Source of the DNA: Rhynchonema sp. JSB1_4 | Taxonomy: Eukaryota; Nematoda; Chromadorea; Monhysterida; Xyalidae | DNA: 64,000 bases | Assembly (NCBI GenBank): GCA_030248065.1 | Contig: JASAMV010001328.1 | Location: 62,001 to 126,000, forward strand | Direction of reading: 5' to 3' | Part shown: positions 15,662-63,928 of the stretch, piece after piece | Layout of the letters: every line of letters begins with the position of its first letter | How positions within the stretch are numbered: the stretch's first letter is position 1 | The notes under the pieces: generated by a model | Told to the model about the DNA's origin: nothing | Database searches by the model: none | What the model saw: only the letters and a program-made list of their open reading frames with translations | Made by a program: the position numbers and the translations under genes

Positions 15662-15723
15662 TTTAGATTTTGCGAAGTATATTCTGCGGTTTTATTCGAA
15701 TAATAACAATCCAGCGTGAAACA

Positions 15724-18700
15724 TCACGAAACGGGGTTCACTTTTTGTTCCGCACGCTCAATTCTCTCCTCAACCCTTTCGTACCAAAGACCCAAATATT
15801 TCATAATCATAATTTTCAATTTATTCATCGCCAAATGCGTTGCGTGGAAGGCGATTGGGGAGAATTTTCGGCCGCTTTTCTGTCGAAATTCGCATTTTCG
15901 TTCGCCCACCCACGGCGCCATCGGACATTGCACATCGTAGCCACACGCAAAGACGGTCGGGTCGGCAAAGGCTGCAATCAGATGCAGTCCATCTTGCTTA
16001 TAGTGACATGTACTGAACCCGGCATTTTTGGTCAGGGAAAAATATTCTATGACAAACAGGACTTCATTATACATATACAGTACATAAGAGGAGGGTCATT
16101 AAAAGAGGGCATACTGCATGGTGCATTGTGAAACGTTTTGGGTACCAAGCTGCTGGATCAGTTTGATCTTGCCTTGCTTGGTTCGCGCGACCTTTTGTGG
16201 GTCTTTCTCAATATTTGATGGTACTACTAATTTTGGCCAGACCTGATGTGCCGGCTCTCGTGTTTTGTTGGATTTTGGGCTAAAAGAGGTCATTTTATGC
16301 ATTTGTCTACGACCATGCCACCCTGAATGCAATATATCCCGTCCGATCTGGCAAGTTAGTCAGTGTCGGCCTGGTTAGTGCTTGAATCGGAGACGGCCTG
16401 GGATGTCGCAGGCAGTTTTGGTCCCGTTTTGTTTCATACTCATGTTAAAATTTTCAAAAATTGGCGCAAAACGAATTAAGGTCAACTCACTGTGAAAATC
16501 AGATTCGTAGTCAGATATATTTGATGGGTGCTCAAGTTCGATATTCTCAGATTTTTTCAAATATTGCGCCACGGCCCAATTTATCAGTGATTGATCTCGT
16601 TTTTCATTGAACGAGGCATTTTTGTAGTGCCCGGCTGCCGTTTTGAAGAGAGTTTTCGTCCAATTGGTTGCTCGTACAATGTAGAGGCCACCGTTTATCT
16701 GAAAAATGTTCCAAAAAGTAGTCATGGTCGTCAATAAAAAGATAAGAAACGCATGGAGTACCTCTTTGTTGTTGCTGTCAATTGTCATGTACGCCGACAA
16801 TTTCGGCTTCGATTCAAAGATGGCGGCAACATGTTCGTGAAACCTGTGATTAATAAATTGCTGTTTTTGTACATTTTGTGAATTTCGGCGAAATTGAAAT
16901 CGTTATTAAAATATATGTAGCTCACCGATCATTGATGAAGACCACGTCCAAGTCAGTGAACACGATTTTCAGGTCTCGTATGCTGCCCCCGGGTTGGCAA
17001 ATCGGATTTTGTGACGATTCGGTGAAGGCGCAGACAGTCTTGTGAAATCCTCCCTCGTTCTTGATTATGCTCTCTGCAACACGGGCAGAACATTGGTCTT
17101 CTTCTGCGTGATCTGATTTTTGGAGCATTTTCAATATGCTTTCTGAAGCATCCAATGCTTCCCGCAATGTGCAGCGCCACATATGCGCGCAGGTACTATC
17201 TGATGTTTCAAGTGGCGTCTGAACTGGAAGTCAAACAATCTTGAAGTTCTTGCTGTTGATTATCCGAGGTCAAAGTGTACACAACTACACGACTGACATG
17301 CATTGGAGGAACTTGACGTTAACAGGTTTCCGCATGCATGCATAACGCAGTACCAGCGTTACGTTACTTTACTTCTCTAGTATTATTGCACTACCTCGCT
17401 TGTGGTCAGCTTCGCTAGAGTACACAGAACTGCAGCACAAAATCAACAGCGTGTGGCGGAAATACCAGCCCATGCCCACTACCACACCGCAGCATTGTAC
17501 AGTATACATAGGTAGATTTCATAACGCACGCACGCACGCCTCGTTCACTAATTAATTGAGTGTGCACTATTCTTGCTGTAATACCAAATTTTGCATCGTA
17601 ACACCTTGTTCACCCTCCCAAAATTACCGCCTCCATTGACCTTGATAACTCAGGCAATTTCAACCACAAGAATTCCCCCATATTTGTATACGTATACTCA
17701 CCAATTATGTCCCAGTAGATCTTGAGTCGCATGGCAGTGTAGTAGACGTAATCAGCACCGAAGAAGTTCGCATTGATTCGGGGTCGTGTCTGGCGGGCTG
17801 GTGGCGTCAGAAGTTCTTCAAGTGGTGCACCTTGTTCAGCGTACACCTTGACCAAATGGAGTATTCGCTCTAGTATATTGTGCTCGACGTTTTCGAGTGG
17901 CACCTAAGGACATCGTCAAATCGACATCTATGCACCCCGTATCACATTTCAAGGCCCGATGCGACTACCCTTATGGTACATCAGGACAATGACAGGTCCT
18001 GTTTCGACCCGATTTTGCCACGGAGTTGGAACACTAGTCGACTAGCGCAAACACTGGTCTAGTGTTGCCAAAAATAGAGCTTCCATCTATCGTAAAATAC
18101 GGCTGCCCCAAGAACTGCTTTTGTTCTGCCATATGTACGTGGTGAAACCGTTTCAAATTTGACCACGTGTCTTAGGCTTAGGCATCGCTCATCGTCCGGA
18201 ATTCAAGTCAGAAAATAATCGGAGGTCATCTCTGATTAGAAGGGCCAAAGTTGATCAGACATATTCAGTTGCATGCAGATTCCGACGTATTGCAGACTCG
18301 TTAACGCATCTCGTCGGGTTTCGTCGTCAACACAATACTGTGCATATTTCTGGCGCTCACGTAGTATTGGTATGACCACACGAGATCCGACGATATGAGT
18401 AGCCAAGATTGCCGTAGCATGTTCAGACACGATGCGTTCCACAGGACTCAGTCACAAGATCAAGAACTGTACGAAAGTTTGATTGACAACGTATTACTGG
18501 CGAAAGCTGCGAAAAAACGGATACCTACTTTGTCAAATTATGTCGTCAAATAAAGTCGTCGAACACATGAGCCCCAAATGAGCTTGAAAATAACACATTT
18601 GTGATTTGACGACAAACTGTGACGACATGATTTGACGACATTACAATAAGCCGAAAAACAAAAAGCAACCGTACCCAGTCAAGTGGAGCTTTATACACTC

Positions 18701-19410
18701 GTTTTTGCAAGAGCAGCGGCGTCTCAGTGTTTTTCGCCACTAAGACAAACTTCTTCAGAACAGGATCCGTCATCAGAACCTCTTTAGCGTCGCTGAACAA
18801 AAAAGAATACCATGATTTTTCAAGACGACACAACCAAAACGAAAAAAGTGTTGGTAATACAACCTGTACACTCCACCATTCAGACAGATGACCAGAAAGC
18901 TGCGATAATTGTTTTTGAGCAAAAAGTAGGCGAAATTGACCAAAAGTGCCGAGTCCAAGCTGTCTATAACGCTGACAAAGATGAAAGGATGATCGACACC
19001 CAGAACTTGGCCAAATGATTGCGCGATGCTGAAAACGATGGTGACTTGAAGCAAATACTGAAGTTATGGGAAGTATGTACCTACGTACCTATAAGTATGG
19101 CTGTTTTGGGGAACAATGACTTTTTTGAAAAATAGTAACGTGCAAATAAAATTAAAATTAAGCATTCCGTTTGAGGAATGTCATCAAGGATCACCATGAG
19201 CATGGCAATGACGATAATGACAATGTGTCCGATTTTTTTTGCAGAACTCAATCGTAGGAGGGGTTGCACTTCGCGGTGATCTTGAAAACTTGTAATGATT
19301 GTGCTGAAAGCCTGACCAACGAACTCTGTCACATGTTCATCTTCAAGCCAGTAGTAGTCTATCGTGCTCATCACGCCCCACTCACTGTAACGAGTGTTGG
19401 GGAATGTCAC
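15724..19410 (-). CDS. PF03407-like nucleotide-sugar transferase A (type II membrane)
   Basis: Minus-strand exons parallel gene B at 20335-23187. N-terminal exon: membrane anchor GHIVIIVIAMLMVIL (about 19371-19085). Next FGQVLGVDHPFIFVSVIDSL then LVICLNGGVYR (about 19020-18862), AKEVLMTDPVLKKFVLVA then RVYKAPLDW (about 18795-18672), FGADYVYYTAMRLKIYWDII (about 17902-17697), LKIVFTDLDVVFINDR with a DLD metal motif (about 17200-16924), LSAYMTIDSNNKE (about 16860-16760), INGGLYIVRATNWTKTLF then DQSLINWAVAQYL (about 16698-16379), and a last exon with VFACGYDVQC and IAFHATHL, stop at 15724. The 'D.D, GG.YI.R, DQ..N' pattern fits nucleotide-diphospho-sugar transferases, probably Golgi-resident. The exon at about 16133-16250 is possible but unproven. 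The stop codon lies inside a copy of the TGAAACATCA word (15717-15726). Confidence 0.7.
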
Positions 19411-20334
19411 CAGCCTGTAAACAAATATTGCTATTATGCTGCGTGGCTCAGTTGGTTAAACGTTGTCAGCATGGTGTGGTGAAAGCAGTGATTAGCGAGT
19501 TCGAAGCCCATATCATAACCAGACCAACCATGTAAAACGCAACATGTACAAACACAAGAAATTCAGGTAAACGCTGTAGTCATATGGCTCGCGTTGTGTT
19601 GCGTGATGTTTCAACCTGCTTGTGCGTTGCATCTGTAAGTTTCAATGACTCTTACATTCTTGCAAAGAACTTGAAACTTGGGAAATGGAGGGCCCCTTTC
19701 AGTATATTTTCTAACGCTGTTTCAGACGTCTTCCTGATACAAAGTCCACGTGGTCTTCTGCATAAAAACCAAGGTCAAATCCAAATGACTGAGTGCCCAA
19801 CTGTACCGAAAACCAATTAATTAGTACAAAAGCTACAACACTTACTTCTTCTTCCTCCCTCATTCTCTGTGCGTTGTTGTTGGCAAGAGATGTCTTTGTG
19901 GCAAGAGCCACTTTGCCTCAAATACTGTGCATAAAAACGCTCCTATTGGTAGATTGGCGGCCAGCCGTTTGCAATAATACGCACATTTCATTACGCACAC
20001 AGGCACAACACAAAGCGCATTAACCAATTAACCGTCGTGTGTAACCAAGGTCTCTTCTAGACACCACTTTGTCTTACGAAAGTGCAGCACTTTGTGGATT
20101 TTGCATATTGCGAGAACGTGGCACGTCAGGTATGTTATTGAAAACCAACAATATGAGTGTGGGGGAGGTAAATTTCGTCCATCGCATGTGAAGTGTCATT
20201 AACGCACAAGTGGTCAAAATTATGCAACAATGCACACATGATGCGTGAAAATCTTGACGACTAGACCAGGAAGGAGGAATGCAACATCAAGCTTGAGCCT
20301 CTGAAACATTCAATAAGTCAATACGATAATCAGA
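19411..20334. other. intergenic between transferase A and B
   Basis: No coding exon that I can support. It contains one exact TGATGTTTCA (19604-19613) and a tRNA-like stretch near 19437-19510 that does not fold convincingly. The upstream side should hold the promoter of gene A. Confidence 0.4.
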
Positions 20335-23187
20335 TCACAAAATCTGATCAGTCTGTTCGATCGATAACAATTTCTTGTCAGCAAGTGTACGCCCAATCAC
20401 TGACGGATGCCAGAATCCCAATCGTTTCAACATTTTGATTTTATTCGCGTTGCCCATCACATGAGTGGCGTGAAACATCAAAGGCAGCCGGCCACTCAAT
20501 TGTTCCTGTTGTATCAGCCAACATTTGCCGCGCAAACATTTGATGTCCCAACCGCAGGCGAATTCGGTTGTGTTCGCCACGGCTGAAACATCAAGTTGAT
20601 TAGAACGGGTTGGAAAACAAACTTTTTTCGGTCATTCAAACATCGCGCACTAATTTCCCTCGTTGCAGAAGCACAGGCACTTGAAAATTGGGCGAAGAAA
20701 ACGGATCTGAGTTTGCAACATTAAGCGTTAGAAAACACGGCTGTCTGTTATCATGCTCATCGACGGTACATACGTATACAATGCGCCGGTCCGGCTCGAA
20801 ATATTTATTATCACAAACATCTAAAAATTGAATTATTTAAGAAAACGCACCATAATGAACTTCGCCCTGATCCGTGATGATCGTGCTTTCCAGCTGCCGT
20901 TGTCTTTGTATTTCGCTTTGTCGTTTGTGTCGAACCCTGAAATACAGGATAATTTTCCCACTTTTATCAAACTTTATAGTTTTTAACTCGCGATCACGTG
21001 CGTTGCACGGCACCTGTTCATCTGATGTTTCATGAGTGCGTAGTTGAGCAGCGATTGATCACGTTGACCGGCCGCGCCCTGGTCAGCGAACAGGCGCAGA
21101 CTTCGGTCGAATAGCTGACTAGTGAACTGGCAAGGACGACAAATGTAGAAGCCGCCGTTGATCTGAACGAAACTTTAGGGATATAAAATGAGAATGCTGA
21201 GAGCAATATTAGAACTTGGTATTGGTCGCACAATGACTTTATAAGAGTTGGTCAAATTTTTTTCCTGAATCGTAAAGAGGGAAAGTGACGGGGCAGTGAC
21301 GTTGCGCTGCGCGATCGCACACAAAACATGCCGTCACCAAAATGTTTCAGACCCGCAGCAACGTGGGTGCTCTGCTGGATTATTTTCAGGTGAAAATGTT
21401 TTGTGAGAATCACAAATAGCACAGTGGTTAAGAGTGATGAACATGAAAATCAGGATTCATTTGATGAATTCTTATGGTCATTTTGGGCGACCAATATCAC
21501 ACACGCCCAACATTTCAAATTGAAAAAAGGCTAACACAAAAGTTGACATAAGCTCCAACGAGACCGCTGATGTTTCATTCAGTTTATGTTTCGTTGAACC
21601 TTTACTGCTATTTTGTATTGATCGGTTATTGGAAAGCAAACTTTATTGCCGCTGATAAATCCGGTGAAGCTTTTACTTTTCACAAGAAACATTTTCCAAT
21701 CCAGAACTGTGGGATGAACGTGAATCGTTTGATTTGCATTGCACTAACCTCTTTTGTATTGCTGTCCGCCGACAAATACATTGACAATCTGTGATTCTCC
21801 GTGAACTGCGCTTCGACATGTGTGTGGAAATCGGGCTGAAATCTTGCACAGTCAGAGAAACAAGACTTCATGAAGAATAACAAGGTGTTTCTAACCTGCA
21901 AAATAACGACGTCGGTATCTGAGAAGACAATTTTCAGCTTTCTCACCCCGCCACTCTTCAGGCGACACAAATATCGCGATGGAAAGTGCGTACAGATTTC
22001 AGAACGCCACTGTCGGCTGTCCGTGAAGAGGCTTTCTGAAACTTTCACCAGGTTTGCTTCTGTTGATTTTCATTTTACGGACAAGAAGAATGAATAATGA
22101 GGGCAGCTTGCGATTTGCCTATTTTTAAGCATGCTGTGATACATGTATCTGCGCTCTAGCACAAACACAGGACAACAAATAACAAGATCAGACTGGCCCT
22201 GCCTTGATCAAGCGACGTTTTTGAATCTTTTATTTGAATTCTTTCCATTGAATTCTACCAATTGTGCTAGATCGACATGAAAGTTTGCAAAGAAGCACTC
22301 ACTTATCAAATCCCGGTAGACTTTCATTCGATGCGCGGTGTAGTAGATGTAGTCCAACTTGAGAAAGTTTGACTGTTCGGTTTTGTTGTCGGACAGAATC
22401 CATGAGTCGGGTGCCAGCACAACATGATGTTTCAAGGTGATATGATTGTGAACGGACTGGTTGATTAGCAGGCGATTGAAGTCGTGGTTGAGGGCGCGAT
22501 GCGAATCACTGCAATCGATAAAAGATTGCATAAATCATGTACATCTAATCCATGGTGTAACGCGTTCCTAACTGATTGCTTGTGCATACAACCACACATT
22601 TTGACCCGCAGCAGTATCGTTTTGGAAGAATTGTGCTGAAATGCAGTCTCTATGTTTTTCATCCCCAGTCAACACCATACGCGTCTGTTCAAAACATGCG
22701 TGTGTTGTTCAGGTAATCCAACGAGGTCCTGGGTCCCATTAACCAACCCTTAGCTTCGATTCCGTAATTTTGTTACTGTAACAAAAACTCACAAGTACGC
22801 GCGATGTCCCAGACAAACGACAATAAAACTCGTATAGTTGTTTGTGACCAAGTAATAGACCCAGTTCCGCAGCAAGTCGATATCGACTGCATCAATAATG
22901 GTGATAAACACAAAATTCTGGTTGTTGGATAAAATTCGGCCAAATTGATGGCTAAGTGTTCGCAATTCCTCGAAATCGGAACTCGATTGATTTAAATCGG
23001 CTAACATGACACCGTTATATTGATTTTGAGTCTCCGGATATGTCAAAACGACGCACAAACGACAAACCAGACCCAATATGGCCAATCGGAACACTAGATC
23101 GGCCCGTTTTCGAATGTGCCGTGTGTTTCGAACGATGAGGGCACAAAAGCGATAGCAGGCGGTTCGTCGGAGTCGAAAACGAAGCAT
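20335..23187 (-). CDS. PF03407-like nucleotide-sugar transferase B (type II membrane)
   Basis: Starts at ATG 23187. Exon 1 (to about 22794) has basic residues, an anchor (LVFRLAILGLVCRLCVVLTY) and QNFVFITIIDAVDI then SFIVVCLGHRAY. Later exons: ALNHDFNRLLINQSVHNH, then LKHHVVLAPDSW and DYIYYTAHRMKVYRDLI (22531-22304); WRSEICTHFPSRYLCRLK then LKIVFSDTDVVILQ with a DTD metal motif (about 22046-21897); LSMYLSADSNTKE (about 21843-21752); INGGFYICRPCQFTSQLF then RDQSLLNYALMKHQMNR (21164-21013); VRHKRQSEIQRQRQLEST (20938-20851); and TEFACGWDIKC through LMFHATHVMGNANKIKML, stop at 20335. It is a clear paralogue of gene A with the same exon order, so they arose by tandem duplication. Five copies of the 10-base word lie within it, one of them forming the acceptor of the last exon (TGATGTTTCAG). 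The substrate is unknown. A 273-bp element sits in one intron. Confidence 0.75.
21222..21494. mobile_element. TA-flanked MITE (TTGGTCGC family), copy 1
   Basis: Begins TTGGTCGCACAATGACTTTA and ends TGGTCATTTTGGGCGACCAA, with TA on each side (21220-21221 and 21495-21496). It is inside an intron of transferase B. No coding capacity. Internal words (GTGACGTTGCGCTGCGCGAT, AATGTTTCAGAC) match copy 3 at 33887-34450 in the opposite orientation, which defines the family. The TA duplication suggests mobilisation by a Tc1/mariner-type transposase. Confidence 0.8.
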
Positions 23188-23707
23188 TTTCTCTCAAATC
23201 TTGCGAATAGAATAAAGTCCTTATGCATGTGTAAGTTCTGTACTTATGTATGTTTACCTTGACGGAACACGCTCGCGCGCAACGTCAAACTTCAATTAAC
23301 CAACTGCACAACACACGCAAGTTATTCTGCTCATTTGGCCGCGCTTTCCCACAATCTGCATGATAATGGTCAATATAGTAGTGCGAGCGCGCACATACGG
23401 TTATTCCAGAAATATTACCTAACCAACTATGCGTTCAGCGACTTTGGGATCTTATTCCACTGTGGGTATCGGTTTCGGTTGCGATTTACGGGTGCAATCA
23501 AGCCATGCCCCATTTCCGATATAAATTGTGCGGTCGGTTTTGATTGGTCATGTGGGCGTGCACCAGTTTATCGTCAGTCCGAAAACACAAGATGGGCACG
23601 TAATCCACACAAGACGCTGGCGCTCTGCACTCCTGAAACACCACTGCTTCTGTAAACGCAAAACTCACTCCAATTCTAGACCGTCTGATGTTTCACAGGT
23701 ATACAGT
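23188..23707. other. divergent promoter region between transferase B and the GT92 gene
   Basis: This 520-bp stretch separates two genes transcribed away from each other. It ends with the sequence TGATGTTTCACAG (23686-23698), 12 bases before the GT92 start codon. No coding exon is recognised. Confidence 0.45.
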
Positions 23708-26700
23708 ATGCAATTGCTCACCCTTACAACGTACCAGCGTGCGTTTGTCTACGCACTAGTTGCGTGCTGTATCTATTGGCGTCAACGTATGTCATCTACG
23801 AATATCAGCCACGACCAGCTGTACCCGATAGTGCACTTGATCGGTGCGTTCGTCAATAGACGACATTTGGAGCTCATTGGAGTCACCAAGAAGTGGCCAC
23901 TTGCACTCGCGAGGAATATTGAGATGTCGATCCAGATAAACGGTTAGGTGATAACAGTTTGCGTATGTAAAAAGTCATTATTTGCCTTGTTGTCTCAGGC
24001 ACACGCCTCGTGCTGACATTCGACGTCTTCGACCTGACCATCGGCGATAAATTCGAGCCATCATGCGATTGGAAGGGATACCTGTACCGAACCGAACTGC
24101 TTCAGTCGACTGTCGATTCCAATGCCGAATTGGTATCGCTTCAATCGCTTGCCGATTCCGTAATGATGTTGAACATCAATCCACCCAACCCGGATCATCA
24201 ATCAATCATTTTATCTATCCCTGAAACATCGGGCAATCAAATTACAACACAATTATCCACTTGTGTCCTGCCGATCTACTTGGGTACAAATTGGATCGAA
24301 TTCTGTCAATTTATGGAATCGTGGACACATTTCGAAGCAGATCACTTTATCGTGATGTTCAGCTCGTTGACAAGTGAATACCGACAGATGATTCGGCTGT
24401 ATGAACGCACTGCACCAGTCAAATTGATTGGTTGGGTTATTTTTTATCGGCATCAAAAGTTGATGATCGATTCGGATCGAATTATTGTAGTTAAGTGACC
24501 TTCAGTATTTTTAACGGAGGGGGGCGGTTCTGGGGGTAAAAACTTGTGGCATTGGTAATTATCGAAATATTTTTACAAAAAAGGTCAAATTCGACCCATC
24601 TCGATCACCAATTTTGGTATCAAGTTCAGTTTGTTTACTCTTTGAATGAGTGTAACATGACACCGTCATTTGTTTTGCAGATTTCGGCTCGCTGGAAATC
24701 GCTGTCTACAGTGCTGGTCACGAAGTTGCACTGAACCTGTGTGTGCGATATGGTAGACACTCGGAATGGTACGACTTTGGTGATGTTGCACTGCAAATAG
24801 GCATATACTGTACTCTCTCCACAATGAACCTCCCTGTAGGTAATCCTCTGGTATGTAATATATAGTGAAGGAATTTTTGGTCCCCTTCTACCGTTCACCT
24901 CCTAATTACTGCTCAGTGTGGTGAACGTCCTATGCATAGCGAACAAAAATTCCCGATCGATTCACTATACGGAGAGTTGGCTGTACACATGCACCATATA
25001 TTGGTCGCACAATGACTATATGAGAATTCATCCCCCTAATTTTCCTGCATTGAAAAGGCGGATATTTGGCATTTTTTTCAAATTGGACCAGGTTTTGACA
25101 AGAACTTTGCATGCTTATCAGTGAGAAGAATGAGAAACACACGTGTGCAGAAGTTTCACCCTGAATTCTACGCAACCGAAATGGTTCGGGCTCGGGTTAC
25201 TGTAGCCACGTATTACACGCTTTGTGTGTGAAATCGATCACAGCACACACACGTTGATCACTCCCGATAAATAAAGCGGGAAAAGAAAGAGAAAATAACT
25301 CCTTGTCAAAACCTGATTCAATTTGAAAAAATCGCCAGAAACCCTCCTTGCCGATGTAGGAAAAATATGGGGATGGATTCTCATATAGTCATTGTGCGAC
25401 CAATACCATCGTAGGATGGCCCTGTTCGATCTCGATGAACTACTAATTTGGCGCGACCCTCAACGCATGTTGTTAGATTTCCTGAATGGTCAAGGCGAGC
25501 AGGACGATGAGCGAGCGCATGTGTACACTTTCAAGGTGCGTGATGTTTCATGCGGGTCACTTTGTGTTGCTCGACGATCAGATTCGTCAGCCTAGAAAAT
25601 GTTTCGGCCCATGGGTAAAAGTAGGCCACATTTCTAGGCTGAAATTCAAATTCAAATTCAAATTTTATCTGCAAGCTTACGCGAAGACCTTCACAAGATC
25701 CGGAAAAACCCTTAAAATAAAACAGTGTTAATAACAAAGAATGTGAACATGAATGAATAAACGACAATGGAAACGCACCGGTGAGATGAGACCAACCAAA
25801 CGAGCCAAACTAGCACAACCAACACACAACAATTTCAGCAACGGATGACGAGAACGAGAATACGATTTTAAATATTGATGATGATCTGAAAGCAGCAACC
25901 CAGTGACTGAGGAGATCAGTCAACGACGGCTGAAAATTTTGAGTTAATGTGGCAAGAAACTACGTCTCGACCACGTGAGTTTAGTTTAGTTTTAAAGGCC
26001 GCAATTGAGGCAGCAGAGACGACGCCCTCTGGTAGCCTGTTCCAGAGGTCCACGACACGATAGGCCCAGTACCCGGACAAGTCCGCACCCGCGCCATGGA
26101 CTCGACACAAACTGTGGGAGTGCCCTCGGGTTGGGCGGCCGGTGTCACGAGATGGAAAGAAGGATTCCTTGGTTACCCCAGGTATGTGACCGTGAATGAC
26201 CTTGTACACAAGCACAAGATCGTTCACGGTCCGGCGCTAAATTAGGGGGTCTAAATTTAGGGCATGCAAACGCTGTTGGTAAGACAGTGTCTGCATGCCA
26301 GGTTGACTGTCTGCCAGGCTGCCAAATGATTGACTGTCTTTGATTTACTGTGATAACATCGATATTCACAAAAATTGTCCAGTACAGCTGGCTGAAATTT
26401 TCGCGATATGACCTTAGGCTCGCCTGTCTGAGTTGTGTGCTCATTAGTTGTCGGAGACCACCTGTCACGCTAACGGCAAATTCTGAAAAATCCCCCACAC
26501 AAAGAGTAACATGACACTTTGACCATTAGCGTGGCGATCAGAAAGTCTCCTTCATTCAGAGCGCTGTCACCACACACCCTCAACCATCCTTCCTGCCCGA
26601 GAAGTACGGAATGCATCCAAGACCAGTCCAAATCAGCACCGTATCAATCAATTTCGATTATCTGACCGACCTCAAAACATCCTACATCGATTCGGCACGT

Positions 26701-27540: not shown

Positions 27541-29554
27541 GTGGACGAAATTAATTTAGCAGCAACGTGTCCTCGATCAAAGCAGATCAGATATTCTCAC
27601 TGCTTGCGACAATCAAACGTGGTAGTCGCTATATGTCATAGTGAAAATGCAAGAAGTTGGCAAGATGCCAATAAGCAATGCTCTGCTCTCCGAGAGCGAA
27701 CAACATTTTCGGTCGGTAGTCTATTTTCAGCCGACATACTGTAAGCTTGACTGAGATGGAAGCATAGATCGATGGAAACCTGCGGCGAAAGCGATACGTT
27801 TTATCGATCAATTGGTTATTTTGATAGATTCTCTCAGTTATTGTTGATTAATTGATTGATTAATTAAAGCAATCCATTGACTGTGTGACTAACGAGAACA
27901 GCTGGTTGGCCTCTGGATCGGTCGGCGAGTTCACGACAAACAACCACATCAACTGAATGCATTCATGCGAAATAAGGCAAAATAGGCAACCTCGAAATAT
28001 TTCACACCAGAGATCGGAAACGGGCCGGGTAAAGTCGGCCGGCCCGGCCCTGTCGGCGAAAACACCGGCCCGGCCCGGTGGAGGGCTGCAGGTCGGCCCG
28101 GCCCGGTCAGCCAATTTTCAAAGGCCGAAAACTGAAAAAGTCCAAAAAGCTGAAAAAAATTCGAAAATTTTCTGCAGAATACTTGTTTTCACTGTGCAGC
28201 TAGGGGGAAGGGGTAGGTATTGATAGGTATGTAGGTACATTGACGCGCCATCCTGATGCAGTACGTGAGTGGCCGCCCCGGCTGGTACTGTAGTAGGTAC
28301 ATATATAATTTTTGGCTCAAAATGGTTTAAAATCGGTATTTTTCACTCCATATACAAAGTACATAGGCGAAAAATCGCGCGTGACGCGCGAAATTAGCGC
28401 TTAAGAGAGTACATTCTCACCAATATGTATGTAGACATAAAAATTTTGTTCCCGGATGACCCCCTAGCTCGGCCGGTCGGTACAGTGGGTAGGTGGATTG
28501 CATGCAGACTTTTTTGGTGGTACAGTAGGTTGATTGCAAATGCCTGGGTATGGGTAGCTACACTGCTGCTTCTTTCTTCAAAACGATGACTGAGAAGATC
28601 AAGAACTGGGAAATGTTATTGCGCGAAGCGCAAAAAGTTGGAAATTTTGGTTCAAAAAATGGTAATTTCGCTTGAATTTAGGCATACCGGCCCGGCCCCC
28701 CCCCAAATCTCCGGCCCGGCCCGGTCGACCAAGTCCAAAATCGCGGCCCGGCCCGCTGTCGATCTTTGTTTCACACGCCCACGATTTCTGTGTTGCTGTG
28801 AGAAGAGCTGACTTAGAAGCGAGCCGATCGAAGGGCTTGCTAGCTAGAAAATGTGAAGGAACACAGTGCTTCATTTGTGAACAAAAAATGAGAATAGGTT
28901 TGTATAAATGCCGAATTTACATAAGAAATTTGATTTTATTTTATTGGTTTGAAATCACTTCGTAACACCGACAACAACGGATTTTCAGAGAAACCTCTTC
29001 CTACCGATGAGAAAGGTTATCAGAACGAAAAAAATCAACCGTGAGTATTGTAGCTCTAATTTTCTAGAAAAGTTTTAGAACGACCACATTCGGTATTTTC
29101 GGGCACCACCCAATATCCTCACCGAAGAATGATGCCAAGTTCGGGGCTGTTCGCATTGTGGTCACGGTCTTGATTGTATTCGGTGTGGCTACAGGGCTCC
29201 TCATTGTTCTTATCATCATCACTGTGCTGCTGCAGCAAAAGTATGGCGGAAAGAGGCGAGGGGTCTTTCGGTAAGCAGTTTTGGGCCGTCAGACAGTCAG
29301 ACAATCTGGTCTTGGACCGCTCGGTGAATCGTTGGTATTCGGTCATCATGCAAGTAAAGCTTGTGCGCACATTTGCTGTATCAGGGCATCATCAGTGCTA
29401 GACTACGCTTGACTTTGAGCTCGATTCCAGAGCAACAGAGAAAAGCAGCCGCCAAAGTGACAGTGCGAGCTCTAAGTCACCGATACCGATATTCGATGCA
29501 TACGGGCCTGAAACATCAAGTCGCCCATCACCAATTTCTCCCAAATCAAAATGA
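27541..29554 (+). CDS. C-type lectin-like membrane protein (paralogue 3, partial model)
   Basis: Pieces on the plus strand suggest a third lectin receptor. About 27541-27738 encodes QSNVVVAICHSENARSWQDA then NKQCSALRERTTF, the first half of a C-type lectin-like domain. A short exon (about 28987-29040, EKPLPTDEKGYQNEKNQ) precedes one with a membrane span (FGAVRIVVTVLIVFGVATGL through LLQQKYGGKRRG, about 29130-29271). The tail exon (about 29411-29554) is Ser/Pro-rich and ends SRPSPISPKSK-stop. The second half of the lectin domain was not found, and a GC-rich inverted-repeat element occupies 28005-28770 of the intervening sequence. The gene may be damaged or may have small unrecognised exons. 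The tail contains a TGAAACATCA word in frame (PETSS). Confidence 0.5.
28005..28770. mobile_element. GC-rich inverted-repeat element with CGGCCCGG motifs
   Basis: Both ends carry arrays of GGCCCGGCCC in inverted arrangement: CGGGCCGGGTAAAGTCGGCC near 28021 against CGCGGCCCGGCCCGCTGTCG near 28741. The outer flanks also match as inverted repeats (AGATCGGAAACGGGCCGGG against CGGCCCGCTGTCGATCTTTG). The core is AT-rich and contains no gene. Length about 770 bp. I could not identify a target duplication, so the borders are approximate. Confidence 0.55.
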
Positions 29555-45113: not shown

Positions 45114-45493
45114 CAGGATGGTCTATTGGGTGCTAGGGTTTAGATTATTTAAATGGAAAGGAATCAGTGAGAAAAAATCTAATAATCTGGTTCCATTTTC
45201 TGAAGAACTTGGGGCAATAATTTTGACATGCTGTGTTCGTGACACTCGGCTTGAACCAGTTTAGGAAATATAATTGGTCACAGTAGTTGAATAACCGAAC
45301 AAGACTAAATCAGTTTTATCGATTGTCAGATCAAGCGCAGTCAGTTTGTAATCTTGCGATGGGGCAAACCAGCGAAATGTTATACGATAAAGAAATCAAA
45401 CGAACGTTGTTGGATAATGAACTGTCTATCAAGTACAGTTCAAAAAAATAAGAGCAGTTTCACTGCATTCCGGTTTCATTCAGTCATTCCTCG

Positions 45494-46064
45494 TCATTTC
45501 TCGCATTCTTTGACGAACTTTTCAAATTGATTCATTGCTGTTTTCGTTTCCGTCGCCCATTGGGATATTACGGTCAGGTTCTTTGATGTTTCATTGAGTT
45601 TGGTAATATTCCTGGAATACATGAACTGCAAATAATTAAGCGGCATTACGAATAGGATAGCCGTCTTGCTCACTCGAAGACAATTTCAAGCTTTTCTTGC
45701 TTAGTTTCTGCCAGCGTAAAAGTTGTTAGCTTTGGTAGGTCTAGCTTTTAGTCGGATCAACCTGCATTTGTCATCTAACATTTGTCACAGCCAAAAGCCA
45801 CGTGACTGAAAACAGATCCGACCAACTCATCAAGCTTCAATGTTGATGCGATTCGAAATGTTTCAAATGTTTCAAAGAAAAGAAAATCAAGTCCACCAAC
45901 TCATAGACGCGATTGAATCGTTCCGAAATTTGATTATCGAAATTGCGCAATTGGCTGAGCTTCAATGCGATCACCAGCAGTGCGATCACCAGCACCAGGT
46001 CGAACGCGGCCTGAATGCCGAATTCGGCGCTTTTCGCTGTTTGATTGGATCGTTGTGATGGCAT
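45494..46064 (-). CDS. small single-pass membrane protein, family member M2
   Basis: Exon 1 from ATG 46064: MPSQRSNQTAKSAEFGIQAA, then the span FDLVLVIALLVIALKLSQL, then a charged helix NQISERFNRVYEL. Exon 2 (about 45614-45494): NITKLNETSKNLTVISQWAT and MNQFEKFVKECEK-stop. Two N-glycosylation sequons suggest the C-terminal half faces the lumen or outside (type II). Exon 2 contains the 10-base word coding for NETS. No known domain. Confidence 0.65.
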
Positions 46065-46468: not shown

Positions 46469-46800
46469 TAGACATCGATTAGAATCAATAAGCAGTGATT
46501 GCATAATGTCGACTTTGTCCGAGATGCGAAAACAGACGTTTGGGCTCTGGAAATTCGGACCTCGGTTGGGGCCTTGGCCTGAGCCTAAGAACGAGTCTAA
46601 CGTACCTTGAAACAATCAGCCACCAGAGGCTGTGGTCCGAACGTCATTCACGAAAAGAATATCGTCCATATGAAGTGGGCGGATATGGTGCAGTCACCAT
46701 AATGCAACAATTGTCCACTGTTTGTCAATCTCATTCATTTCCACAGACCAAAAACATACACGTATCTTGTGAAACATCATTTAAGCACCCAACCAATCAC

Positions 46801-51435: not shown

Positions 51436-53821
51436 ATGTCTCGTCGACCCCAACGTTTAATCGCACTGTGTTGCGTACTGGTGGTCGGGGTAGGGGCGTA
51501 TCTGGTGGTGAGCCGACATCGAAAAACGAGTTTGACTGCAGTGCTGGCCAATTTCTTCGCAAATCGTAAGAAAATTTTTTTATGGAGTTAGCCAACACCA
51601 GCGAGATATTTCTTTTACAAAATGCTTATTTGTCTTCAGGGACAAACTCAACGGTTTGTCTCGGCTGTGACGACTATCTATCGATCGAACCGAAGCGAGT
51701 GAAACATCAGTTTAAAAAGCCAGTGACTCCAAAGTCTCCGATTCGTCATTTCGTCTACCACGCACTTTTTAAAACAGGTAGCACCAATACAAGGAATCAA
51801 TTGAGGTCGGTTGGACTTCGTACTGCGATGTTTTTCAGAGATAGATATAGACATAGACCATTTGTGTTTATGATGAATCAATTTACGTGCACACATCTGA
51901 AAAATAGAAACCTTTCCCTCCTTAATTCCTTGCCAGAGTGCGCTTGAAAAAGGCAAGTATTGCTGCAGATTTCTCTTGCAGATTATTCTGCGATCGTGAG
52001 AAGTTGTCCTGTATGACCTATTGTCAGTGTGGCATGTGCAGCAAAGAGATTGTCGGTTGCATGCAGCGGCACGCAAGAAACATTGGAGTTGACAGGGACA
52101 TTGCGTTTGGTCGGTCGACGTTGCTGTGTATTGGCAACAGATACAGAATTGTGAAATCTACATATGTTATGACGCTTGAGTTTGTGGAGATGCGATCACT
52201 TTGCGCGCTGGTTCGACTGACGATGACCTGGGGCACCTCCCGACCGTCTGTGAAAACAGAACGAAGCAGGCACAAGCGTGTGACAATCACCAGTGATTAT
52301 ACAGTAAGATCCACTGATCTCAGGGTACATGCCATATAACGTATAGCTATGTAGTACAATGAAACATCGTGCCTTTCAGGTGCATTCACAGTGTCACGCA
52401 TGAAGGACGGCAAGTGCTGCATACTATACGACGACTTTCTCAGCAACGGTGTTGATGGTGTGTGAACTGTTGTAGGCGATTCTAGTTAAACCGAGCGAGT
52501 TTCTAGCCGGAGTGGTTGTGATTTTTCAGGTTTAATAGATCATTTCCCGCTGAACGTCATTGAGAATCGCGAGTTTCTGCAGCGCGCAGTGCCCAAGGAC
52601 GCGTTTCGATTCACGGTCTTGCGCGATCCGATCGATCAATTCATCTCGTGGCACAACTATCTCCTCCTTCGTCCACATCTAATGTAAATTATGCAGCATG
52701 TTTATGCTTGATTCGACATGTTTTCAAAGTTGGGCGAAAGGTGTACCAGACAAGATGGACACGTGACCTCAAAAAAACGCACAAGAGCTGGTTTACTGCT
52801 CGCGCAGAACATCTCTGATAGTGCAACTGCACCTACAGGTGGTCATCTGAAGTCGAGTTTAAAATGATAAAGCTTCTACTTTTTAAAAATATATACAGTA
52901 CAATATTTCTAGGAGCGGTGTTTGTTGTTCTTCCTTCAGATACGAGCGAAGCAGCATTCCGAAGCTCGAGACCTTTATCGATTTATGCTGGAATGCGTGG
53001 CACAATCAATCGCTGAAAGACATGCCCAAGAAGCACTACGCATTGCATTCCATTGTTACGAACTCACAAGCAAAGCAATTAGGGTGGTCAGGCAAGTGGT
53101 ACAAGTCATATTCGGTTACACGCATTTGCAAACGTTGACATATATGATTGTTTTGAAGTCACGTCATGGAGTATCATGTTCATTTGCGCATATATGTCTT
53201 CTAACAGATCGTGCTGTTGCAGCTTCAGGAGCTCAGTCCGACATTTTCCCTTTCACATTCAGGCATTTGGACCGATTGGCAGTCATTCAACGACACCCTG
53301 CAGTATTTGCACCGGCTGAACTATGTTGGCATTAATGAGGAGCTGCCTCGTGTTTGGCAGCAACTGCGTATGAGATTGGGTACTTACTTTCGACTTGTGG
53401 TCCTGCATGCATGAAACTTTGATCCAAACAAACGGTGACCTTACCTTGCCGTAGACTAACCGTAACCTCAGTCGTACTGGTTGACTCCAAGTTCGATACA
53501 GCAATTGCCTCTTGCTTTTAGCCCTTGTGATGTGTGTGGCTTTTAACTTTGACACCTCTAAAGTCTTTGAGGATTGTCTAGAGTCAAGAATTTAGAAATT
53601 ATTTCACAGGCTGGCCGACGGACTACTTTTCGAGAAACGTTCCTCCCAATGTATCTGCAGCGGACAGAATACGAATCGGAATCACCTCCTCAAAGACTGT
53701 GACCCACACAAGTGATATCAGAAAGAACCTGAACCAAAAACAATTGGACAAGATTCGTGACATTCAATATGCGGATATCAAACTTTACACCGAAGCAAAA
53801 CGAATTTATCTCGGTCAATAG
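51436..53821 (+). CDS. galactose-3-O-sulfotransferase-like enzyme (PF06990-like)
   Basis: Golgi sulfotransferases of this family move sulfate from PAPS to galactose on glycans or glycolipids. ATG 51436 gives MSRRPQRLIALCCVLVVGVG, a type II anchor. Exon 2 (51640 to about 51804) ends with HFVYHALFKTGSTNTRNQLR, the 5'-phosphosulfate-binding loop (KTGSTN). A later exon (about 52531-52683) carries FRFTVLRDPIDQFISWHNYL, the 3'-phosphate-binding motif (LRDP..Q..S). Further exons: SSIPKLETFIDLCWNAWHNQ (52942-53089); LQELSPTFSLSHSGIWTDWQ then LHRLNYVGINEELPRVWQQL (53221-53380); and the last, WPTDYFSRNVPPNVS through DIKLYTEAKRIYLGQ-stop at 53821. One or two exons between 51930 and 52460 remain uncertain. 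The acceptor substrate is inferred from family only. Confidence 0.75.
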
Positions 53822-56112: not shown

Positions 56113-56672
56113 TTAATCCTTAGCCGGACAATTCCCGATTGACTCTCCAATTCTGTTCACATATTCGGTCAGGTTCATTTGGGCAAACAGCATCGAGATG
56201 TTCACTCTCAGCGCATTGCTTCGTTCGATAAGGTGATCGGTTGCGCTGAAACACAGTTGCAAAAAAATCGACTTTGTTTAATTTGACGCTGGCTGCACAG
56301 TCTCCAAGGCTCGGGTGCTAGAATCGTTAAGCGAGCTTGCCCGAATCGGTCGGGCCTTTTTTTCTCCGGCGGCCTGGCTTGAACTTTCCAACAAAGGCTC
56401 AGTGACTGAATATGCCAATCCGACTCCATTGTTATCAAGCCCGTTCGGTTGTAAAATTAGCCATTCGTTGTTTCATATGGTCTTCGAAGCACATCGTTCT
56501 GAAACGTGATAAAATTGTCCCATACCAACTTTCTGGCACGATAGATTCGGTCGCGAATTCGATGTTGATAGCGGTGCACTTCGACCAATTGCCAAGTCAA
56601 AATGAGCAAAGCAGCGATCAGCACAACGTTGACGCCGTTTTGAATGAGCACGAGCAGATGGGATGTGTGCAT
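56113..56672 (-). CDS. small single-pass membrane protein, family member M7
   Basis: Exon 1 from ATG 56672: MHTSHLLVLIQNGVNVVLIA, span VVLIAALLILTWQLVEV, then RIYRARKLVWDNF. Exon 2 (about 56248-56113, acceptor TGTTTCAG): ATDHLIERSNALRVNISMLF then MNLTEYVNRIGESIGNCPAK-stop. Two sequons (NIS, NLT) in the C-terminal exon support a luminal or outside location, as in M2. The TGATGTTTCA word at 56672-56681 directly abuts the start codon. Confidence 0.65.
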
Positions 56673-57247
56673 GATGTTTCAAGGAAAGTTGTTTTGCAGA
56701 GAAAGATGTGGATTTTAAATCAGTGAAAGTGACATGTGGATTTTAAAACGATCACGCAACCAAATGTCGCGGCAGGCAACATCGGTCACAGCTTAATGGA
56801 GAAAATGAAGTGGTTCTTGATTTTGATTTTAGGCTCAGGGTCATGCCCGTGAGCAGGGCTGAAACAATTTTAATTAACGAGCTTTTTTAAAAAAATTTTC
56901 TGATTTTTTTGACGAAATTTTTTTATTAGAAAAAGTGTTGCAAACGACGTTTCAGGGTAAATGAAATCTATACAACATAATTTTCAAAAATTGAAAAATT
57001 TCTGCCTGAGATTGAACTTGTGTGGTAACACCCGGTAACATTGTGCAGATTCTACGGTCTCCGACCAGTCTGAGGTTGACGTTGACCAATGATGTTATTC
57101 TAATGTATTGCAGCATGCTATACGTATTTTAACGCATCTAATGCCGAATGAGTGATATACGACCACCAAAATATCGATTACTGCCCAAGCCTTGCGGGTC
57201 CTCCTGGTTCGCAATTATTTTTTCGCTGCTACTGTTGTCGACGCAAC
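56673..57247. other. intergenic upstream of M7, nothing recognised
   Basis: AT-rich with several poly-T runs; no exon or element that I can support. Confidence 0.4.
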
Positions 57248-59165: not shown

Positions 59166-59176
59166 GTTTTTAAATC

Positions 59177-60961
59177 TTGTTATCGGTAAATAAAATGAAT
59201 CAAGAACGCATAATCGGTTCTGAAATTATGACACGGTTTGCCAAGCAATACGACACCGATGGCGTGCTGCACACAGAGGACAAGGACAAGGCCATTGCCT
59301 TCAACACCTATTTTGCCTCTGTCTTTAATTCCAACCTTGGAATTACAGGCACAATCCCTCTGTGTGCAGCCCATCCCGTTCCGGACATGGAGGAAATAAT
59401 TTGCTCTCCCCCCATTCTCTTTCAATTTTTTCGAAAATTACCCGCCAAAACTTCCCCTGGCCCAGACGGGATCCCTTCGGCCTTCTTGAAAAAGTTGGGC
59501 ATCGGCCTCGTGGAACAATTCTCATTCCTTTTCAACCAAATTCTCCACACCGGTGTTGTTCCTGATGATTTCAAGTTGGCCGATGTGATCCCAATACCCA
59601 AGGAAAAATTCCCAAAAAATGTCACTAAATATCGTCCCATTTCTCTTACATCCTCCTCCTGCAAACTTTTGGAGACCTTTGTTAACTCAAAGGTCATGGC
59701 CCATCTTCAAAAACATAATTTATTATCTCCCTTCCAATTCGGTTTCATCCCTGGTCGCTCTGTAGAGGCTCAGCTATTGTGCTGCATGTCGCACTGGACA
59801 GCAGCGTTAGAGCGTGGGAACGCAGTGGACATCATTTACCTAGACAGCCAAAAGGCTTTCGACACTGTCCCCCACTCTGCGCTGCTGCAAAAACTGCAGC
59901 ACTACGGTTTCCCCCGCCATTTACTCATTTGGGTATCCTCATACCTAAATGGGCGGTCACAGCGGGTTCGGGTCGGGGACGCAGTCTCTGGGTGGATTCC
60001 GGTCACCTCCGGCGTCGCACAGGGCAGTGTTTTCGGCCCGACCCTTTTTCTCATCTACATAAATGATGTCGTCAGTGTGGTACATCCAGGTACCTATCTG
60101 TATCTCTACGCTGATGATATCAAAATTTACAGGGAAATCCGTAGTGCTGCAGATCACAAAATCCTCCAGGGTGACATAAATGCGGTCATTAGTTGGCTCT
60201 CTGCAAATGGCATGGCTCTTGCCAGCCATAAGAGCGTCACAGTAAGGCTTGGGAATCGCCCCCAAGTCCCCCCTGTCTATTTCTGTGGGAATGAGCAAAT
60301 TATTTCACCACCCCATGTCCGGGACTTGGGTGTCCTAATAGACCAACAAAACTTGAAATTTGAATCACATATTGGTAAAATTGTGGCTGACGCCAGTAGA
60401 ATGGAGAAGACCATCCGCCGAAACTTCCACAGTCGAAATCTAGATTTCCTCAGAAAACTATACTTGGCTTATGTTCGCCCATTGCTGGAATTCTCCATGT
60501 CCATTTGGTCCCCTCAAAATGTCACTTTAGCTAAAAACGTTGAAAAAATTCAACGTCGGTTCACCTACTATTTACCTGGCATGCAGACACTGTCTTATCA
60601 ACAGCGTTTGCATGCCCTAAATTTAGACCCCCTAATTTATCGCCGGACCGTGAACGATCTTGTGCTTGTGTACAAGGTCATTCACGGTCACATACCTGGG
60701 GTAACCAAGGAATCCTTCTTTCCATCTCGTGACACCGGCCGCCCAACCCGAGGGCACTCCCACAGTTTGTGTCGAGTCCATGGCGCGGGTGCAGACTTGT
60801 CCGGGTACTGGGCCTATCGTGTCGTGGACCTCTGGAACAGGCTCCCAGAGGACGTCGTCTCTGCTGCCTCAATTGCGGCCTTTAAAACTAAACTAAACTC
60901 ACGTGGTCGAGACGTAGTTTCTTGCCACATTTCATCAAAATTCTCAGCTGTCGTTGACTGA
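59177..60961 (+). CDS. non-LTR retrotransposon reverse transcriptase (partial polyprotein)
   Basis: An uninterrupted frame of 594 codons. Order of motifs: KAIAFNTYFASVF (spacer typical of CR1/jockey types), PGPDGIPSAFLKKLG, YRPISLTSSSCKLLE, FGFIPGRSVEAQLL, IIYLDSQKAFDTVPHSALL (catalytic D), SGVAQGSVFGPTLFLIYIND, YLYADDIKIYR (YADD catalytic pair), then HVRDLGVLIDQQNLKFESHI and the thumb and C-terminal region ending SSKFSAVVD-stop. The fingers, palm and thumb look intact with no stops, suggesting recent insertion. The lost 5' part means it is not autonomous. Confidence 0.93.
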   Translation: MLSVNKMNQERIIGSEIMTRFAKQYDTDGVLHTEDKDKAIAFNTYFASVFNSNLGITGTIPLCAAHPVPDMEEIICSPPILFQFFRKLPAKTSPGPDGIPSAFLKKLGIGLVEQFSFLFNQILHTGVVPDDFKLADVIPIPKEKFPKNVTKYRPISLTSSSCKLLETFVNSKVMAHLQKHNLLSPFQFGFIPGRSVEAQLLCCMSHWTAALERGNAVDIIYLDSQKAFDTVPHSALLQKLQHYGFPRHLLIWVSSYLNGRSQRVRVGDAVSGWIPVTSGVAQGSVFGPTLFLIYINDVVSVVHPGTYLYLYADDIKIYREIRSAADHKILQGDINAVISWLSANGMALASHKSVTVRLGNRPQVPPVYFCGNEQIISPPHVRDLGVLIDQQNLKFESHIGKIVADASRMEKTIRRNFHSRNLDFLRKLYLAYVRPLLEFSMSIWSPQNVTLAKNVEKIQRRFTYYLPGMQTLSYQQRLHALNLDPLIYRRTVNDLVLVYKVIHGHIPGVTKESFFPSRDTGRPTRGHSHSLCRVHGAGADLSGYWAYRVVDLWNRLPEDVVSAASIAAFKTKLNSRGRDVVSCHISSKFSAVVD

Positions 60962-61235: not shown

Positions 61236-61576
61236 CCCACAACGACACCAGTGAACTTGTATTGATGATGGCACAACAGAAATTTATCAGACCAAATATT
61301 TTCACAGATTAGTTCGAATCTACACGGTTTGATGAGTTAAAATACCCAAAGTTGGCATAAAAATAAACCTGCTAACAGACTGCTATGACATTCGATATAA
61401 TCAGATATGGGATTTGCATCAAAACCGCAATTATATGTGTGTAAGCTTTTCCCATTTCTAGCCTGGTAATGATGGAATCTGTGTGCTTCTCATATTTCAG
61501 ATTTGTTGCATTTTGTATTTAATTTTTTGAATTTTGCTCATTTTGATGTGCGTGCTTTCGATTGACCTTCTTCGTA

Positions 61577-62367
61577 TTACTTGCATTTCTTCGTGGCTCT
61601 GTCGAACACGTCCGTCAGACTTCTGAAAGAAACATGCAAATTTTTGATTCATTTTCAGTAAAAACCACAGCATGTTTTGATATCCAAGAATCGCAACGCT
61701 CATACAACGAATGAAAGGTGAGATTTACGTTCCTCCCAGTATATGCCTACTCTTTTGTTATCATGCCCGGGTTGGTGCGCGCGACAGATTTGGCTGAGAA
61801 TCGTTCGGTTGGTGTAAATACTGCATGTACGTTTCCTCTTATAATATCCACCCAGGCAACTCTTGTATGGCCAAGTATATACATAGATCTAGCTCGCAAG
61901 CTTCGTGGGTGCACCGTCCGCCTGTGAACACTAGCCGAAACACCGGCAACCATCAAACACGCTATACGATCCGCATTGTAATGCCGTATTGAAAAAGAAA
62001 CGATTTTCCCCAAATTCCAGTTCACCGGGCGTCGTCGACCACTGGACGAAAAATAAATAAACTGCATAGTTTGTACGCACTTGACGGCCTTCTCGAGCAT
62101 AGTTTGCAATTCGTCAGCGGTGTAGATGATTTCGGCCAATTTCCAGAAGAGAATAATGATGCAAATGATCAGGAACACATCGAGCATCAGTTGGCCGATG
62201 TAGAATATGTACTCTTGTGGTTTCACTGGCTTGGACACTGATTTGGATTTGACAATATTGACGGTGTCGTCGTCTTCGTGTTGTTCTTGTCGGTATTTCT
62301 CTGATTGAGTGGGCGATTTTGAACGTTGTTGCTGTTGTTCATCGTCACTATGATGTGCTCGTGGCAT
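61577..62367 (-). CDS. small single-pass membrane protein with Gln-rich N-terminus, member M10
   Basis: Exon 1 from ATG 62367: MPRAHHSDDEQQQQRSKSPT, charged cytoplasmic segment to KSVSKPVKPQE, span LMLDVFLIICIIILFWKLAE, then IIYTADELQTMLEKAV. Donor AA|GTGCGT near 62080. Exon 2 (about 61622-61577): KSLTDVFDRATKKCK-stop joins in frame. The long open frame that continues past 62080 into 61747 is probably intron. A TGATGTTTCA word sits 5 bases upstream of the start codon. The family plan matches M4 and M5. Confidence 0.7.
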
Positions 62368-62382
62368 GATGATGATGTTTCA

Positions 62383-63008
62383 CGGACTATGTTTATGCAT
62401 AAGCGATGGCTTGGGAAAAATTTGTTCTGTCTGTGGCAAATGTACTGTAATAAATGAGCTGTGATTTTTTTTGTGGAAACGAGAGTTAGTTCGAAAATTG
62501 TAAACCCCTTGAGAATATCGACACGACTCGATTAACCAGCTTCTTACAAGACAGATTTATTATAATCGAACATATATTTCATGCCATTCCGATTATTTAC
62601 AAAAAGTACATGCTCTGTCCAAAAGAGCGAAAAACAGGAAAAAATAACACAAACGAATAAAATTTTTGAGGAATAAAACGAAGCAAAATCTTTGGTAGTA
62701 TTAATTCGGATTATCATTTATGGTACATACAAAAATTACAACAGCTTTTAAAGCCACGTATCAATAAAAGTGAATTATCAATCTGCAAAATTATAATTTC
62801 GGAAACCAGCATTGTAGGCAATGAATAAAGAACACACGGCGCAGGAAGGAAAGCTAAATAAAAGTCAAACAATTCAAATCAAAAGCAGCTCACCGCTGCC
62901 ACTGTTAAGTAAAGCCATTTTAGAATTTCCCCAGTAAAGGTTCTTTGCTTAACCGCTAAAACTGGAAAGAACCAAGCAGACGATTATTGAAAGCCACGAA
63001 ACATTCAA
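62383..63008. other. intergenic, AT-rich, nothing recognised
   Basis: No exon or repeat that I can support. It contains the 5' flank of M10 and the 3' flank of the last gene. Confidence 0.45.
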
Positions 63009-63928
63009 TTATGCGACTTGAATCTGAACGGACGGTTCATACAGTAATCCATCGGCCCCCTTCAACGACATTTTCCACTTTCCCTTCGCTAAAGCCACAA
63101 CTGCTTGCAACATGCAATCATTCTCGACTCTCATATCAACAACTTGGAAGTCACTGTCGTCAGGTCGAAGGCTGGTCAGCGACAGTTGGTGCACAACGCT
63201 GGTATTGTCTGAAACATCACATTGCGTTGTAGGATGAGGTTCCTTGACCTTGTGAAAGCCACGATCAAGCCTAACCAGAACCATCACCAAAGTCAAAAGC
63301 CAAATTGGTGAAAAAATTTTGATTTTAGCTAACCGATATCTCTAAATTCCAGAACAAAGGCATTCTGAGGGTCCAGCTTGTCAGTCGCTGTCAGTTTTAG
63401 TGCCATTTTGCCCCCGATCTTGAATCCCAACACTCCGCCCTCATTGTTGACTTGGCCGAGAATTTCCACGCTGTCCAGCGTGGGGCACTTTTGGACGTCT
63501 TTTGGGGTCAGTTGCATATGTAGGGGTTCTGAAATGCAATGAAAAACACAATATATGTGAAAGACGTACAGTCTTGTGTTGAAAATCAGACACTTCATGC
63601 GGTCCCAAAACCACAGTCCTTCCTACAGATAAAGAAAGTCTAACCTTAACAAGTGCAAAATTAACCAACTTCCATTGACACCTTCGAACTCAAATCCGGA
63701 CACTTCGCTCATTTTGGTCAACGCCACCCCAGTGAGCAGTTGGTTCCACATCCGTTGATGTTTCACGGGTGTACGTGGTGGGTCATTGGACGGCCGTCGG
63801 CGAAGGGGTAGGGGGAAGGAAGAGGCTTTTGAAGTTTTTTGAACTGATGCATCACTTGCTTCAAGTTCATCGGGCAGACACGGCTTCTGATAAACGTAAT
63901 CTGCCGGCAAATCGATTGGTGTGATCAT
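63009..63928 (-). CDS. unrecognised three-exon protein
   Basis: Exon 1 from ATG 63928: MITPIDLPADYVYQKPCLPD, a Pro/Arg segment (SSFPLPLRRRPSNDPPRT), then MWNQLLTGVALTKMSEVSGF. Exon 2 (about 63529-63335, acceptor TGCATTTCAG): MQLTPKDVQKCPTLDSVEIL then GGVLGFKIGGKMALKLTATD. Exon 3 (to the stop at 63009): TTQCDVSDNTSVVHQLSL, then MRVENDCMLQAVVALAKGKW. No signal peptide or membrane span is obvious, although exon 1 could be preceded by others outside the window. I do not recognise the family. Two copies of the 10-base word fall in its exons, in different frames (VKHQ and DVS). Confidence 0.5.

Follow-up and report, generated by a model that had tools for sequence, protein, structure and literature searches.

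A ten-base word, TGATGTTTCA, is scattered in very many copies through the genome of the nematode Rhynchonema sp. JSB1_4, and very probably represents one half, the first, of the proximal sequence element (PSE), standing alone. The PSE is the SNAPc site in the promoters of small nuclear RNA (snRNA) genes. The word is described here from a 64,000-base stretch of this genome, the window (positions 62001–126000 of contig C824), and from the whole assembly of 203.9 Mb and 5,747 contigs. In the window it was recorded as TGAAACATCA, the reverse strand of TGATGTTTCA, and its anatomy is given in the TGATGTTTCA orientation. This identity suggests that the snRNA transcription machinery is summoned to very many scattered sites, possibly serving the making of small genome-defence RNAs.

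The word and the snRNA promoter element

The Ruby motif, CTGTTTCA, lies about 40 bases upstream of Caenorhabditis elegans PIWI-interacting RNAs (piRNAs), as described in an excerpt of PMC4015492. Beltran et al. (2019) equated this motif with one half, GTTTC, of an ancestral SNAPc site in their argument (excerpts of PMC6436959), hence the snRNA genes of the nematode's own genome were compared with the word. A total of 33 snRNA matches exceeded the cut-off, comprising nine U1, eight U2, three U4, eight U5 and five U6 (two of them full-length), and upstream DNA was compared for 28 of these, with one U4, one U5 and three U6 left out.

Upstream of 26 of the 28 snRNAs the word was present with zero to three mismatches, starting 44–48 bases before the RNA, or 56 bases before it in the case of two U6 genes. 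The match was exact in four promoters (U1 L084, U1 L087, U4 L097 and U4 L098), where chance predicts about 0.7 exact copies across 3,744 bases in all, and differed by one base in 11, by two in nine and by three in two. In a control stretch 76–100 bases upstream of the same snRNAs, a match with three or fewer mismatches was found in one of the 28. The five best-scoring U2 copies carry the element as TGATGTGACA or TGACGTGACA, and U2 L046 and U5 L090 also possess it. The two regions where it is absent lie upstream of U1 L082 and U1 L086. By eye, both of these PSE-less promoters hold an end resembling that of a short inverted-end element found at 24999–25408 of the window, which has at least 39 copies at 96–100% identity (scored from 5,636 first-look candidates).

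After the element, 23 of the 26 promoters have GANNGAC, mostly as GANNGACTACCC or a sequence near it, and in most snRNA genes the second half of the PSE is GANNGACTACCCC. No second half was seen in the U1-like L087 and both U6 genes (L095 and L096). Sequences read by eye as TATA-like are present there instead, as would be the case in RNA polymerase III-type snRNA promoters, which these three appear to resemble.

The scattered words were searched for the same second half with a profile built from 19 snRNA promoters, and it was not found (82 words, z = −0.3). This result also disposes of a second half concealed in the sequence around the words. The words do not form a complete bipartite PSE with a constant distance to the start of an snRNA, and no snRNA was detected in the window by Rfam at gathering scores.

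The bases immediately adjoining the word are a further point of agreement. The base before the word (−1) is C in 13 of the 26 snRNA promoters, and the base after it (+10) is C in 18 and G in the remaining eight. Among 75 strictly distinct scattered copies, C occurs at −1 in 30 and at +10 in 31, where 22% is expected, and a looser set of copies gave 35 and 37 of 86. The preference for flanking C is therefore common to the scattered words and the snRNA element. Beyond these adjacent positions composition is nearly flat to 200 bases either side of the word. Flank preferences of this weak kind resemble those that a bound site would show.

It is the sequence, position and flanking C in common with the snRNA element, together with the absence of the second half, that lead us to regard the word as a lone first half of the PSE. 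Relative to the snRNA PSE of the same genome, the scattered words are alike in the first half and in the flanking C preference, but have neither GANNGACTACCCC nor an snRNA downstream, and they keep to TGATGTTTCA whereas the snRNA genes vary.

Number, spread and surroundings of the word

Genome-wide, the exact word occurs 37,556 times (18,727 and 18,829 by strand), an excess of about 100-fold over the 345 occurrences of a reversed-letter control, with a mean spacing of approximately 5.4 kb. Allowing up to one mismatch gave 92,371 places, hence 54,815 single-mismatch sites spread over 30 variants, and 15,548 for the reversed-letter control. In the window TGAAACATCA is present in 22 exact copies, ten on the plus and 12 on the minus strand, against a chance expectation of 0.55 (standard deviation 0.80, maximum 4 across 100 dinucleotide shuffles). 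The resulting 0.34 per kb exceeds the genome mean of 0.184 per kb by a factor of about 1.9.

A preliminary description of the window had proposed a count of the word across the genome, as now given. It had reported 21 copies between 15717 and 63765, a chance expectation of about 0.1 and an empty first 15.7 kb. The excess it noted remains overwhelming at the higher expectation from dinucleotide shuffles, and the window does begin with word-free DNA. The total was one short, however, owing to an additional minus-strand copy at 15501–15510, which also reduces the word-free start to 15.5 kb.

Contigs C1–C23 (601,510 bases) hold 93 words, with at least one on 19 of the 23, and density across them is moderately overdispersed (chi-square 57.9, 22 degrees of freedom, Monte Carlo p 0.0002). 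As density varies between contigs in this way, the empty first 15.5 kb calls for no special explanation. The genome-wide distribution leaves the suggestion of an enhancer shared by one local gene set unsupported, and contig-level counts likewise lend no support to a pairing-centre or X-dosage motif restricted to a single region. More generally, a word for meiotic pairing or dosage compensation seems very unlikely. The moderate clustering between contigs would suit such a role, but a word found on 19 of these 23 contigs, recurring about every 5.4 kb and holding a fixed position in snRNA promoters, would suit it poorly. The HIM-8/ZIM pairing-centre words and X dosage motifs of C. elegans are likewise short, dispersed nematode words. 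The present word is set apart from them in being genome-wide, not concentrated, and tied to snRNA promoters.

Neighbouring words showed no preferred spacing or orientation among 44 copies in 164 kb of C824, where 18 of 43 pairs were on the same strand and spacing was broad. No description of the word was found among the literature matches listed. Its letters occur, in one orientation or the other, in 101 papers, and the 20 of these that were listed deal with other topics, judged by title and the start of the abstract.

Flanking sequence was compared in a 314-kb sample made up of the window and loci L009–L038, from which L001–L008 were excluded, having been chosen for holding the word. Copies with at least 17 of 30 flanking bases in common were collapsed, and those left are termed flank-distinct. 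The sample contains 63 words, 56 of them flank-distinct, where an order-3 Markov model predicts 1.3. Among 307 frequent 10-mers of the sample the word ranks second by Poisson tail, behind poly-C, and two simpler words, TACATACATA (31 against 0.36 expected) and TATGTACATA (28 against 0.43), have a fold excess above that of the word. The second of these, TATGTACATA, is a palindrome and is one of the other over-represented flank-distinct words in the sample.

The flanks of most copies do not align, and a single transposon or repeat family was rejected as their source. The same point had been made in the preliminary description, which considered the flanks unrelated and the copies no residue of one repeat family, and it is borne out both by the proportion of flank-distinct copies and by 1.7 kb of the window that holds four words and whose sole genome match is itself, in a search that leaves simple repeats and highly frequent words aside. 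Only a minority of copies lie inside duplications or inverted-repeat elements. One repeat with inverted arms of about 277 bases carries the word; it has at least 42 matches (40 scored of 1,344 first-look candidates), and the word is intact in 12 of 12 sampled copies, the flanks of which are too similar to inform on conservation. This repeat is also approximately 73% related to DNA adjoining a Fringe-like galactosyltransferase domain (loci concerned: L024, L034, L066 and 11418–11594 of the window), as if captured from a Fringe-like galactosyltransferase gene. A galactosyltransferase fragment had a single database hit, in Enterobius vermicularis.

Flank-distinct single-mismatch variants of the word number 78 where about 27 are expected, and they are unevenly represented. 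There are ten distinct copies of TAATGTTTCA and eight of AGATGTTTCA, and none with G4 to A, T6 to C or T7 to C, albeit in small numbers. These variants and the 277-base-arm repeat bear on the possibility that the words are mostly a non-functional product of spreading, seeded by inverted repeats or by biased gene conversion and followed by decay, which we consider rather improbable. Such spreading would agree with the intact word in every sampled copy of the repeat, and with an excess of variants close to that of the exact words, as continuous birth and decay would yield. It fits poorly with four words in DNA that matches only itself and with the uneven variants, and it leaves the match to the snRNA element unexplained. 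Selection on a graded binding site would explain the variants somewhat better than neutral decay.

Two further candidates were rejected. A ten-base insertion did not account for the word in the one case where a related window sequence was available, in which the corresponding place has a two-base gap and substitutions but no loss of ten bases. A core-promoter or transcription-start element found no agreement either, in that TATA, ATG, splice and poly(A) words take no clear position around the word. A few isolated bins stand out among many, uncorrected, and one of them is trivial, since TTTCAG arises wherever the word precedes a G.

A crude self-trained coding model supplied coding posteriors for the sampled words. 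Posteriors above 0.5 were obtained for 14 of 63 words, against 21.9% of sampled bases, and above 0.9 for eight of 63, against 14.1%. The mean posterior at words was 0.255 (shifted null 0.230 ± 0.052), and in the window eight of 22 words exceeded 0.5. The earlier suggestion of a signal acting at the level of DNA is consistent with this apparent indifference to coding, with the even balance between strands and with the weak flank preferences. Bacterial DNA-uptake and HIP1-type words are likewise exact 10-mers on both strands of coding and non-coding DNA; the word described here differs in that it doubles as an element of promoters in its own genome. An artefact of assembly, primers or polishing could in principle plant exact copies among unrelated flanks. 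We regard this as hardly credible, given that the word occupies the same place in snRNA promoters with natural variants, that predicted reading frames pass through it and that its flank preferences match those of the PSE.

Likeness to the Ruby motif and a PIWI-type Argonaute

The Ruby motif of type I 21U-RNA (piRNA) genes is bound by the USTC complex (PRDE-1, SNPC-4, TOFU-4 and TOFU-5). The sequence TGTTTCA within TGATGTTTCA agrees with seven of the eight bases of CTGTTTCA and includes the GTTTC core. The word also resembles the Ruby motif as a lone SNAPc half-site, the word or a variant being carried by 26 of 28 snRNA regions and 82 scattered words having no second half. According to excerpts of PMC6436959, the great majority of piRNA loci in Clade V have the GTTTC half by itself, and in Pristionchus piRNA loci with this half-site are dispersed. 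The very many dispersed copies of the present word are of this Pristionchus type, and, as in species with Ruby motifs, a PIWI gene is present.

A Piwi-domain search of the genome returned 54 exon matches, and eight of the 12 regions examined were of Argonaute type, with the GTSRP signature. The one exon tested further (L056 on C4595, 52 residues) matched "Protein piwi" (6kr6), presumably that of Drosophila, at 9.1e-15 and argonaute-2 at only 1.8e-4. Matches on C1663 and C3368 cover nearly the same Pfam positions as this exon, by domain search alone. Judged by these matches, a putative PIWI-clade Argonaute is encoded in the genome. Piwi in nematodes is known from Clade V and plectids according to excerpts of PMC6436959, and an excerpt of PMC4323106 reports none outside Clade V nematodes.

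We propose, with about even confidence, that the dispersed words work like the Ruby motif as stand-alone SNAPc half-sites. SNAPc, or a complex containing it, would bind the half-site TGATGTTTCA at scattered loci, the bound half-sites would start short RNA polymerase II transcripts, and these transcripts would feed the PIWI-type Argonaute of the genome. By analogy, SNAPc would probably bind the element here, as is known for the PSE elsewhere, and the words may drive transcription and piRNA output.

A number of results weigh against this proposal. Initiation would be expected where snRNAs start, hence a rise in pyrimidine–purine (YR) steps at positions 43–46 after the word start and in T at 46–49. 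T occupies positions 44–50 in 159 of 574 cases (27.7%, against 28% in the genome), and YR at positions 43–46 was found in 16, 24, 22 and 18 of 82 words, where 20.5 is expected. Neither a set of 65 copies nor one of 75 shows phasing of YRNT at that distance; YRNT is highest at positions 12, 17 and 18 (11, 10 and 12 of 75, about five expected), a result uncorrected for the many positions and in any case far too close to the word. There is no A/T-rich spacer or low-GC valley downstream (GC 0.462, 0.473 and 0.457, against 0.444 further out, in 65 words). Coding DNA is not avoided by the words, as judged by the crude coding model, whereas 97% of intragenic piRNA loci in P. pacificus are intronic (excerpts of PMC6436959). 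Three of the 26 snRNA promoters themselves do without the second half, several are near-identical copies and therefore the 26 are not independent cases, and the PSE variants TTATGTTTCA and TGATGTTACA of snRNA genes are hardly dispersed, with two and three copies against 63 of the word.

On the positional counts, phased starts of the canonical kind could account for no more than roughly one quarter to one third of the words. Unlike the Ruby motif, the word is a 10-mer beginning with TGA, without a YRNT or 5′ T at the expected distance, without an A/T-rich spacer or pausing valley and without a sign that coding DNA is shunned. As the features that define a Ruby locus are partly absent, we do not class the words as Ruby motifs.

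The same results raise the prospect, which we consider less probable, that the SNAPc half-site serves a different purpose. Bound by a subunit of SNAPc or by a protein of similar DNA preference, the words might help to organise chromatin, holocentric chromosomes or general germline transcription and yield no piRNAs. This would agree with the identity of the word with the PSE half, with the missing initiator, 5′ T and pausing signals at the expected place and with the apparently equal treatment of coding DNA. To our knowledge, a role of this kind for SNAPc is without precedent, which counts against it. The lone half-sites described in excerpts of PMC6436959 are, moreover, piRNA promoters.

Copies in the window, other features and significance

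Strands of the copies in the window refer to TGAAACATCA, so that TGATGTTTCA reads on the plus strand at minus copies such as that at 15501–15510 (−), which is predicted to be coding with a posterior of 1.0. Also predicted as coding are the copies at 20471–20480 (+), 22425–22434 (−), 63210–63219 (+) and 63756–63765 (−). Coding posteriors are 0.55 at both 20584–20593 (+) and 21023–21032 (−), 0.57 at 29509–29518 (+) and 0.01 at 15717–15726 (+). The four words in DNA matching only itself are those at 19604–19613 (−), 20471–20480, 20584–20593 and 21023–21032. An open frame on the minus strand (61747–62379) has the copy at 62373–62382 (−) at its 5′ edge, a few bases ahead of the first ATG. The other exact matches are found at 17201–17210 (−), 21568–21577 (−), 23686–23695 (−), 25541–25550 (−), 29978–29987 (+), 39206–39215 (+), 45106–45115 (+), 45584–45593 (−), 46770–46779 (+), 51700–51709 (+) and 56672–56681 (−).

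The window also contains several features apart from the word. An open frame of 544 amino acids (41043–42677), which we take to be BEL/Pao-like, has DUF5641, integrase zinc-binding and sub-threshold rve matches and adjoins short repeats of 100% identity. A reverse-transcriptase frame of 595 amino acids (59174–60961) has its best database match at 42% identity (among 120 matches listed of 2,487), and its 3′ part is present as a 97% inverted copy at 25871–26303. A lone 5S rRNA-like match of 50.5 bits lies at 16305–16424. Interstitial, degenerate telomere-like CCTAAGCCTAA repeats occur at 30670–30730, and CCTAAGCCTAA is also spread through the 314-kb sample; telomere repeats of the TTAGGC type are linked with nematodes.

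Tentatively, half of an snRNA promoter element may have given rise to about 37,000 SNAPc sites that form a network across genes and intergenic DNA and use no phased 21U start. This would represent either a piRNA system that initiates imprecisely or a novel function of SNAPc across whole chromosomes. Should the words give rise to short RNAs, this nematode would possess an unusually large, dispersed piRNA system that resembles the one in Pristionchus and starts by a different rule. If the words are silent, SNAPc or a protein of similar preference would have a second, genome-wide role. The proposed derivation of the Ruby motif from the snRNA promoter would also gain an independent example in this word.

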